Source: Paenibacillus humicola (lineage in GTDB: Bacteria; Bacillota; Bacilli; Paenibacillales; Paenibacillaceae). Taken from it: a stretch of DNA of 64,000 nt. The position numbers were made by a program, and so were the translations under genes. Location: positions 956,501 to 1,020,500 of the forward strand of contig NZ_JAQGPL010000001.1 of assembly GCF_028826105.1 (NCBI RefSeq). Reading direction: 5' to 3'. Within the stretch, counting starts at the first letter, position 1. Every line of letters starts with the position of its first letter. A model generated the notes under the pieces. It was not told the DNA's origin. It worked only from the letters and a program-made list of their open reading frames with translations, and ran no database searches. Shown piece by piece: positions 55,745 to 57,638 of this stretch.

Positions 55745-56350
55745 TTAGGAAAGCTTTTCCCAATCCTCCCACATTTCCCTCGGGTTAAGCTCGTAAATGT
55801 CCTGCTCCCGGTACATGAAGGCGTGCATAATCAATTCCCGCCGGATGGTGGCGAAATCGGGGTGGAATTGAAGAATGAATTCGTTGATTTCCTTCTCCGT
55901 ATACGATTTGCCCGGCTCAAGCTTCCCGGCGAGATGCTCCAGCACAATCAGCTTCTTCTTCAGCTGCACCGGGATATGCTTCAGCCTTCCTTCGGCGGTG
56001 AAGAAATTGCGGATCACCGACTGCTGCAGCTTGGCGCCCAAAGGTTCCATGGCGTCCTCCTTTCCTTCGCTTGCTGCGGACTGCGTAATCAACGTCTCCA
56101 GTGCCCGCGAATACTGGGTTAAAAAATAACGGTTCAGCGTAAAAAAAATGGCGTTTTTGTCCCGTCTTTCGTTAATCAACCCGACGGTGCGCAGCTTGGC
56201 CGCATGATGGGTAATTGTGGCGGGGGACAGGCACAGCCGGTTAGCCAGCTCCAGCCCGGTAAGCTCCCCTTTGGCCAGCAAAATGAGCATCCGCACCCGG
56301 GTCGGATCGGCCAACGCCTTATGGTAATGAACGATTTTGTCGAGCTGCAT
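55745..56350 (-). CDS. ArsR family regulator fused to DUF2087
   Basis: 201 residues. The N-terminal winged helix (ALADPTRVRMLILLAKGELTG, LSPATITHHAAKLRTVGLI) is followed from about residue 118 by DUF2087, with RLKHIPVQLKKKLIVLEHLA, YTEKEINEFILQFHPDFATI and RRELI. No ArsR metal-site Cys is present, so it probably senses something else, perhaps through DUF2087. RBS GGAGGGCG before ATG 56350. Its own promoter and an 18-bp palindrome lie upstream, implying autoregulation together with the downstream membrane protein. Confidence 0.9.
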   Translation of the reverse strand: MQLDKIVHYHKALADPTRVRMLILLAKGELTGLELANRLCLSPATITHHAAKLRTVGLINERRDKNAIFFTLNRYFLTQYSRALETLITQSAASEGKEDAMEPLGAKLQQSVIRNFFTAEGRLKHIPVQLKKKLIVLEHLAGKLEPGKSYTEKEINEFILQFHPDFATIRRELIMHAFMYREQDIYELNPREMWEDWEKLS

Positions 56351-56420: not shown

Positions 56421-56463
56421 GAAAAATAGGGACCCGGCCGTCGCAACCAGCCGGAATCCCTAT
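56421..56463 (-). terminator. Terminator of the unassigned RNA
   Basis: ATAGGGA (56426-56432) pairs with TCCCTAT (56457-56463), with an inner CCGGC/GCCGG stem, and the minus strand continues into T5 (A run at 56422-56426). Confidence 0.82.
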
Positions 56464-56698
56464 CCCTTCACAAACGCATTCAATTGTTACCTGCACACTC
56501 CATTCTTACAACTCGCGTTGCTCATTTCAAACCGAAGACGTCGTCCGACTGCGGGTTCCCGCATGTCCCGAAAGCCAACTTCCTACTGGCTTACTCCTTT
56601 CCATTCCGAATTATAGGAACACGCTTCGCTTACCTGCTTCATTGGACTATCCCCTTCCGGTGAGGTCATATCATTCGGCAAAGGAATGATATGGTTAT
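56421..56698 (-). ncRNA. Unassigned structured RNA of about 270 nt
   Basis: A self-contained minus-strand unit: promoter at 56699-56728, hairpin CATATCATTC/GAATGATATG (56667-56676 with 56684-56693) at the expected 5' end, internal stems AAGCCA/TGGCTT (56572-56577 with 56587-56592), TGCGG/CCGCA (56550-56563) and CAAC-GCGA-GTTG with a GNRA loop (56509-56520), and a rho-independent terminator at 56421-56463. No ORF of note is present on either strand. It ends just upstream of the separate arsR promoter, so it is not an arsR leader. I could not match it from memory to 6S, SRP, tmRNA, RNase P, T-box or known riboswitches. Confidence 0.6.
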
Positions 56699-56728
56699 AG
56701 TGTACAAGCCCACCTGCAGTTTTGTAAA
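56699..56728 (-). promoter_or_regulatory. Promoter of the unassigned RNA
   Basis: Minus strand TTTACA (plus 56723-56728), 18-bp spacer, TACACT (plus 56699-56704). The predicted start, near 56692, coincides with the first base-paired residue of the 5' hairpin. Confidence 0.6.
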
Positions 56729-56868
56729 TATTCAGAAAAATCAATTAAATGTAGTTGAAAGCGCTTTTACGCCTTAAATCTCCTTTATTCTCGTTTTTAT
56801 TTACAATTTCGCAAAAATTGAAGACCAGATATCCCGGATCGTCATGCATAAGCGGCAGTGAAAAAAGA

Positions 56869-56930
56869 TTGACACATTGAGTAAAGTGAACTATATTATA
56901 ACCGACGGTTACTAACCAATGGTTATAATA
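56869..56930 (+). promoter_or_regulatory. Promoter with two AACC-N3-GGTT operators
   Basis: TTGACA (56869-56874), 17-bp spacer and TATATT (56892-56897), followed by AACC-GAC-GGTT (56900-56910) and AACC-AAT-GGTT (56914-56924) over the transcription start. From TATATTATAACC onward it aligns without gaps with the operator region at 47752-47786. Confidence 0.8.
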
Positions 56931-56951
56931 GATGAAGGCGGTGTAGGCAGC

Positions 56952-57638
56952 ATGAAAGCGGAGCGTGTATCGGAACATATTTGGAGCCTGAGAACGTGGA
57001 TAATCATCCCCATCCGCGTATGGATCGTCGTGGAAGAGGACGGCGTGGTGCTGGTCGATGCAGGGATCGGCGCCATGGCCCGGGGAATTCTCGCGTTTAT
57101 CGATAAGCTGGACGCCGGCCCGCTTAAAGCGATCGTATTGACGCACGGGCACTCCGATCATACCGGATCGGTGAAGGCGATTTTGCGGAACAGGCAGGTC
57201 CCGGTTTACGCGGACGGCATCGAGCTGCCGTACATGGAAGGCGAGCAGCCCTATCCCCGCCGCAAGAAAGCGGTCCCGTTCCTGCCGAAGGGCATCGCCC
57301 GTCCGCTTCCGGAAGCGGGAGGCGAGCCGGCGCCGTTCGGTTCGCTGACGCCTTTCCGGACGCCGGGGCATTCGCCCGGCCATGTCGCTTACTACCACGA
57401 ACGGGACGGAGTGCTGCTGGCCGGCGACCTGTTCACCTCGAAGCGGGGCCGGCTGCAGCGGCCGATGCCGATGTTCACGGCCGATATGGCGGATGCGGTT
57501 CGCAGCGGCGCGATCGTGAAGAAGCTCCGCCCGGCCAGCGTCGAAATTTGCCACGGCGGACCGGTCCTTCACCCCGCGGAGCAGTACGACGCGTACGCGC
57601 GGAAGGCAGGGACTGTAAATAACGGATTGAGCCTATGA
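56952..57638 (+). CDS. MBL-fold metallo-hydrolase
   Basis: 228 residues from ATG 56952 (GAAGGCGGTG upstream). Zinc-ligand motifs of the metallo-beta-lactamase fold: LTHGHSDHTGSVKA, TPGHSPGHVAYY, LLAGDLF and ICHGGP. The substrate is unknown; relatives include glyoxalase II-like and lactonase-like hydrolases. The gene is controlled by a promoter overlapped by the same operators as the membrane-protein operon at 47.8 kb, so it probably belongs to the same small regulon. Confidence 0.9.
   Translation: MKAERVSEHIWSLRTWIIIPIRVWIVVEEDGVVLVDAGIGAMARGILAFIDKLDAGPLKAIVLTHGHSDHTGSVKAILRNRQVPVYADGIELPYMEGEQPYPRRKKAVPFLPKGIARPLPEAGGEPAPFGSLTPFRTPGHSPGHVAYYHERDGVLLAGDLFTSKRGRLQRPMPMFTADMADAVRSGAIVKKLRPASVEICHGGPVLHPAEQYDAYARKAGTVNNGLSL

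Follow-up and report, generated by a model that had tools for sequence, protein, structure and literature searches.

A stand-alone RNA gene of Paenibacillus humicola belongs to a new RNA family of Bacilli whose conserved start sites may serve to engage ribosomes

The window analysed here is a 64,000-nucleotide stretch of the P. humicola genome, and its minus strand carries, from position 56741 to 56421, a compact transcription unit made up of a promoter, a 5' hairpin, a module of about 110 nt, a GNRA-type hairpin and a terminator. The RNA at this locus is about 270 nt long. The features of the unit and of its neighbours, in the order in which they are met along the minus strand, are as follows.

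56919 to 57638, plus strand: diverging ORF resembling the metallo-beta-lactamase fold, named by eye
56727 to 56741, minus strand: CodY-like box ATTTTTCTGAATATT, with 2 mismatches to AATTTTCWGAAAATT, overlapping the -35 element
56699 to 56728, minus strand: sigma-70 type promoter TTTACA-N18-TACACT, from a sequence scan, its -35 context conserved
56667 to 56693, minus strand: 5'-terminal hairpin, a perfect 10 bp, CATATCATTC/GAATGATATG, from fold and sequence
56643 to 56656, minus strand: SD1, the Shine-Dalgarno (SD) sequence AAGGGG of the module with its spacer, from anti-SD duplex energy
56583 to 56642, minus strand: ORF1, AUG-AAG-CAG..., 19 codons in the window copy, its start codon conserved in the family
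56620 to 56635, minus strand: near-invariant core AGGUWAGCGAAGCRUG, from 137 unique loci
56616 to 56624, minus strand: 5' strand of helix P1, from pairing and covariation
56561 to 56569, minus strand: 3' strand of helix P1, then conserved GGGAAC, from pairing and covariation
56509 to 56520, minus strand: CAAC-GCGA-GUUG hairpin, a stem also seen, with GNNA-type loops, in many relatives, as read from alignments
56484 to 56504, minus strand: SD2, the SD sequence GGAG of ORF2 with its spacer, from anti-SD duplex energy
56460 to 56483, minus strand: ORF2, UUG AAU GCG UUU GUG AAG GGA UAG, 7 codons, with its stop at the terminator base
56421 to 56461, minus strand: intrinsic terminator, its stem covarying in relatives
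56418 to 56390, minus strand: promoter-like site of arsR, TTGACA-N17-TAATAT, from a promoter scan
55745 to 56350, minus strand: ArsR-type regulator, named by eye

Much of this layout had been described in an initial annotation made from the sequence, which proposed the promoter, the perfect 5' hairpin, a GNRA-type tetraloop (CAAC-GCGA-GTTG), the intrinsic terminator and a separate arsR promoter beyond it, and all of these elements are indeed present where they are listed above. Single-sequence scans need careful interpretation here, as five promoter-like sites in the scan compare with 2.2 +/- 1.3 in shuffled sequences and five terminator-like sites with 4.6 +/- 2.1, which makes either signal weak alone. 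The folding z-score of the window copy is -1.87 (7 of 200 shuffles fold equally well or better), and its minimum-energy fold lacks helix P1 despite the covariation that supports this helix. We therefore judge the RNA gene to be real not from such scans but because it is conserved across genomes and its helices covary. The annotation had also stated that there was no ORF, but we find the 19-codon ORF1 and the 7-codon ORF2, each preceded by an SD sequence and each with a start site that is conserved family-wide. Since it carries these conserved short translation units, the RNA is not simply non-coding.

The Rfam search that the annotation had recommended gave no family at threshold for this RNA, either in the window or in the homologues tested. 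Using Rfam 15, the window produced no match at the gathering threshold and only three sub-threshold matches at E<=10; among 18 homologous loci only a tRNA matched, 16 further loci gave only two riboswitches lying outside the RNA, and distant loci (5 + 1) gave sub-threshold matches only. An RsaOG match in locus L231 was rejected, being on the other strand and below threshold (E 0.24), as was an RNase P-like similarity of GGAUAGUCC noticed by eye, for which Rfam offered no support. Among the stable structured RNAs of Bacilli, 6S RNA is similar in size; its model (RF00013) has no match at the locus, and the genome's own 6S RNA lies elsewhere (G000:C1:4104112-4104295). No Rfam model of bacterial SRP RNA matched in the window either, which agrees with the earlier view that this is neither SRP nor 6S RNA. 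The family appears to be missing from Rfam 15, and so, of the original wording 'uncharacterised regulatory RNA', the first adjective stands in that no Rfam 15 family reaches threshold, whereas 'regulatory' is still inference. In the accessible portions of the literature we found no description of this RNA, and it may already be an unnamed transcript in RNA-seq data from P. riograndensis, the available part of which reports 27 small RNAs among intergenic transcripts, most of them of unknown function (PMC5670726).

Homologous sequences were found by blastn in 53 of 146 genomes, the source genome included, and a core-pattern search of species-representative genomes returned at least 120 stretches; among the matches listed from that search (80 titles) were Paenibacillus, Cohnella and one 'Bacillus sp.'. 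Two covariance models were also used, R1 being built from 68 modules (alignment A1, the remainder of 124 candidate modules after redundancy removal) and R2 from 26 divergent modules (alignment A4, for which 27 were chosen and L207 was left out). R1 matched 187 of 392 genomes of the order, and the other 205 gave no match under strict filters, so any role the RNA has must be dispensable or have diverged there. At the level of the class, R1 matched 14 of 299 genomes, seven of them outside the order with one of those (G656) at chance level, and R2 matched 22 of 398, twelve from the order and ten outside it, two (G507 and G576) being chance-level; the weakest class matches in general, with E-values of 4e-4 to 9e-4, are to be read as chance. 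Three matches at the level of the phylum (R2, 299 genomes, E 5.7e-4 to 7.5e-4) are likewise at chance level and were discarded as evidence for presence outside Bacilli. Phages and plasmids gave no match to the RNA and viral contigs gave none with one exact pattern; an origin in phages, plasmids or viruses was rejected on these sets, which distant copies could escape. Throughout the family the architecture consists of one module, or two to four tandem modules of about 115 nt, followed by a 3' unit, with two or four tandem modules in divergent genera. Inside otherwise single-module lineages the core module is seen duplicated in L028, L056, L059, L082 and L119. Taken together, we hold with very high confidence that the RNA gene is a member of a new stand-alone RNA family of Bacilli, and one that is common in a heavily sequenced group.

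That the RNA should be an independent gene and not a simple leader had been proposed at the outset, and its surroundings bear this out. Only 59 of 165 loci have a co-directional downstream ORF, and in the other 106 it lies on the opposite strand. These downstream ORFs form 68 families, and the upstream ORFs, taken from 170 loci, form 73 (neighbouring ORFs were called by a mechanical procedure, at loci that are not independent of one another). Given such varied and mostly non-co-directional downstream genes, the RNA is best regarded as a gene of its own, with its own promoter and terminator, unrelated genes downstream, covarying helices and no Rfam 15 match at threshold; the conserved co-directional downstream gene that marks a cis-regulatory leader, riboswitch or attenuator was not found. 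This bears on one alternative in particular. In leader-peptide attenuators a short ORF has its stop at the terminator stem, a likeness that ORF2 shares in most loci, and a ribosome at the ORF2 stop could in principle melt the terminator and so control read-through into downstream DNA. Such a translation-dependent attenuator seems to us improbable, as the RNA family, unlike those leaders, is not tied to a conserved co-directional gene, and arsR in the window has its own promoter-like site. Similar metallo-beta-lactamase-fold-like and ArsR-type neighbours are present at a minority of the loci (7 and 13 respectively).

A covariation test had been suggested along with the Rfam search, and helices P1 and P3 do covary. 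All eight tested pairs of P1 are formed in 110 of 130 loci, a set from which seven loci with duplicated or truncated cores had been excluded and in which the P1 closing strand is misassigned for L061 and L126. In alignment A1, 97.2% of P1 cells are paired, compared with 90.2% when shuffled and at most 55.7% when slid, and there are 53 both-side changes compared with 11.7 in shuffles; the number of pairs with a both-side change (five) is not exceptional, being reached by 97 of 500 shuffles, but shuffles reach the other covariation measures far less often or never. In the divergent modules (A4), P1 and the inner hairpin P3, whose GUGA(A/C)A loop is conserved, show covariation by all measures, with 93.1% of cells paired compared with 76.5% in shuffles and both-side changes in 13 of 14 pairs. 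In the terminator stem of relatives, 13 of 15 pairs have both-side changes. The window copy lacks the GUGA(A/C)A loop (A4 columns 82-91). It also deviates from the upper terminator stem sequence GGUUAUC...GAUAAGC, which most rows of alignment A2 share and which is kept more strictly than a terminator requires. We rejected a possible switch helix, P0, in which UCC before the start codon would pair with GGGA after P1, as the complementary run was 3.73 in the observed sequences and 3.73 in shuffled ones and there was no covariation.

Outside the covarying helices lie the near-invariant segments GGUWAGCGAAGC and GGGAAC, which ribosome binding alone does not account for. If one considers these together with the 5' and 3' hairpins and the varied neighbours, a trans-acting base-pairing RNA comes into view, in which the core, GGGAAC and AAUUGAAUA would recognise target mRNAs or a protein, and ribosomes on the mini-ORFs would only stabilise the RNA or tune its availability, in the way that a bound ribosome is known to stabilise a B. 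subtilis RNA. We consider this possible, and rate a base-pairing regulator with merely protective mini-ORFs nearly as likely as an RNA that engages ribosomes, the reading we prefer; base pairing alone, however, leaves unexplained the tandem modules as well as two features of the ORFs described below, the frame-keeping of ORF2 and the enrichment of stops at codon 3 of ORF1.

A polypurine SD sequence and a start codon lie just 5' of P1 in nearly every module. The start codon is present in all 30 loci found by blastn (L001-L030), and AUG, UUG or GUG is found in 87 of 90 modules from the covariance-model search, where start offsets of 10-14 were allowed and 90 of 92 matches were used, with L194, a duplicate, and one weak match dropped. 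These two sets are free of the bias of the core-pattern set (n=137), in which only the first base of the start codon is informative (T in 83, A in 54) because the pattern fixed its T and G. Upstream of ORF1, an anti-SD duplex of -5 kcal/mol or below can form in 73 of 73 nonredundant modules, and the mean anti-SD energy is -8.1 kcal/mol for ORF1 and -6.7 for ORF2 compared with -2.2 for other NTGs of the same RNAs. Being purine-rich, the stretches upstream of ORF1 remain almost as SD-like after shuffling (mean -6.9 kcal/mol, with 293 of 365 at or below -5), so that the comparison with other NTGs is the useful one. Our confidence that the start sites are functional is high.

What follows the start codon is equally distinctive. 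A stop occupies codon 3 in 99 of 217 modules, the 19-codon window copy not being among them, and in the remaining 118 the length of ORF1 varies. Of the 73 nonredundant modules, 31 have a T as the first base of codon 3, and in 30 of these the codon is a stop (UAG 24, UAA 5, UGA 1), an enrichment with a P of about 3e-7 if independence is assumed. Two-codon minigenes of this kind are known, bar of phage lambda being an example. Another is the axe-txe minigene, according to the accessible part of one report (PMC8708949). The likeness extends to the SD sequence, the start codon, the single sense codon and the stop, but the family's versions differ in lying in a covarying RNA module, sometimes in tandem, within a separate RNA gene, and in most members they are not followed by a long downstream reading frame. 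The segment GGUWAGCGAAGC is near-invariant whether it is translated or not, which indicates that the constraint on it acts on the RNA.

The 3' unit carries the second translation unit, with the SD sequence GGAG, or AGGAGG in some divergent genera, followed mostly by UUG-AAU. At 174 loci (127 of the 130 together with 47 distant loci) ORF2 starts with UUG in 156, GUG in 10 and AUG in 8; within this set L184, L185, L225, L226 and L228 look misassigned by the mechanical choice of site, and the stem finder misplaces some terminators. The first in-frame stop falls between +18 and +27 in 127 of 130 loci, or in 166 of 174 once divergent loci are added, and the stops used are UAG (102), UAA (44) and UGA (23). 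Where a stop-like triplet occurs within 6 nt of the terminator base, the nearest one is in frame in 153 of 163 loci, and the frame is kept regardless of whether ORF2 has 6, 7, 8 or 9 codons, 7-8 being the usual length. An anti-SD duplex of -5 kcal/mol or below is available in 109 of 119 distinct upstream stretches. For ORF2, omega is 0.49 in frame compared with 1.23 and 1.38 in the other frames (84 non-independent pairs), which hints at some constraint on the peptide; the value is a soft one because third codon positions, with 71 differences, are hardly more variable than second positions, with 69. The ORF2 peptides are unlike one another between clades.

The best indication that the start sites are able to function is given by the genus g4, where the ORF1 start opens a frame of 68-72 amino acids in eight loci (L012, L017, L018, L029, L030, L268, L269 and L270). 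Omega for this frame is 0.10 compared with 1.86 in both other frames (six sequences and 15 pairs, L269 being left out; pairwise counts of this kind are not phylogenetically independent). Its stop, UAA, directly precedes the ORF2 UUG in seven of the eight loci, and in L269 a UGA overlaps it. To judge from the substitution pattern, the module ORF of g4 is now a protein under purifying selection; a search of the protein collection yielded no homologue of it, and g4 may be regarded as a candidate case of protein birth from a structured RNA. In the light of g4, and of the ORF2 omega, one may ask whether the whole unit is a mini-operon of functional small peptides in which the ORF1 and ORF2 products act and the RNA structures regulate their translation. 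We think this unlikely for the family, given the Met-X-stop arrangement of the 99 modules above, the core that stays near-invariant even where untranslated, the clade-to-clade differences of the ORF2 peptides and the lack of a match for the g4 protein in the protein collection.

A related comparison is with dual-function small RNAs such as RNAIII/hld, SR1/SR1P and SgrS/SgrT, which are stand-alone and structured, end in a terminator and contain an internal SD-led ORF. The RNA family shares these traits, and g4 resembles such RNAs most directly. In most family members, however, no conserved peptide is seen, ORF1 often has only two codons and it is the start and stop sites that are kept instead. 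The conserved functional peptide by which dual-function RNAs are recognised was thus not found across the family, purifying selection being clear only for ORF1 of g4 and soft for ORF2. Selection apparently keeps the initiation sites and the nearby stops and, in most members, not the peptide, which is an unusual pattern of selection. In some lineages it has also increased the number of modules.

The tandem arrangement invites a further alternative, that the RNA is a sponge for a protein binding SD or GGA sequences in the manner of CsrA, with the GGA/GGGG-rich modules, repeated one to four times, as repeated protein sites. This is very improbable in our view, for a CsrA sponge would have no use for the start codon, and often also a stop codon, that belong to the conserved element, and the GGA is found within or next to a predicted 3-bp hairpin and not in a clear loop.

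As to when the RNA may be made, the promoter offers an indication. At 132 of 172 loci the motif CTGAATATTTA occurs with at most two mismatches in the upstream 330 nt, compared with 13 of 172 base-shuffled sequences, and it was not found within that distance of the remaining 40; it was derived from the same loci in which it was counted, and the control is a simple base shuffle. It shares its shape, AATWWTCWGAATATT, with the CodY box AATTTTCWGAAAATT, a sequence associated with CodY in the available portions of the literature, apart from one systematic change (A12 to T) next to the -35 element. The 5.9-Mb genome has 15 sites within two mismatches of the CodY consensus, one of them at the RNA promoter, compared with 8 for a reversed control pattern, and it possesses a codY gene. 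The RNA gene therefore resembles CodY-controlled transcription units in having a putative box, with two mismatches, overlapping its -35 element in a genome that encodes CodY, and departs from them in the one systematic mismatch found across the family. We have moderate confidence in this predicted control of the RNA by CodY.

Considering these data as a whole, the reading that we place first, albeit at somewhat less than even odds, is that of a nutrient-controlled stand-alone RNA that engages ribosomes. CodY would repress the RNA in rich medium, and nutrient limitation would release its expression. The start sites would then be bound by ribosomes or 30S subunits, which would cycle through the mini-ORFs or be parked there. 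Counted from the first base of the start codon, P1 starts at +19, the expected position of the ribosome's mRNA entry, and may slow or hold a ribosome that has initiated. Many initiating ribosomes would meet an early stop before P1 and then recycle or stay, and those at the 3' end would terminate at the terminator, so that the nearby stops would make an initiating ribosome terminate ahead of structured RNA or of the 3' end. The RNA could in this way act as a ribosome-engaging decoy or sensor for which the peptides are usually irrelevant. Our confidence in ribosome decoy or parking as the function is low to moderate. It is a more doubtful proposition that we are dealing with a new kind of RNA altogether, a nutrient-controlled ribosome trap or sensor that works through being initiated on and not through its coding content, built from tandem structured start-stop modules and a terminator-abutting mini-ORF, and from which a new small protein has arisen in one genus. 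If ribosomes are engaged on purpose, then the RNA would have a part like that of the protein factors by which ribosomes are stored or restrained in starvation.

Variable parts of the RNA have been expanded by tandem repeats in several loci. The P1 loop is affected in L010, L011 and L144, with a hairpin-like unit of about 48 nt present in about 4-5 repeats in L010 and 7-8 repeats in L011, and the linker is affected in L003, L019, L023, L024 and L036. These repeat-expanded variable loops suggest a scaffolding that is tolerant of length.
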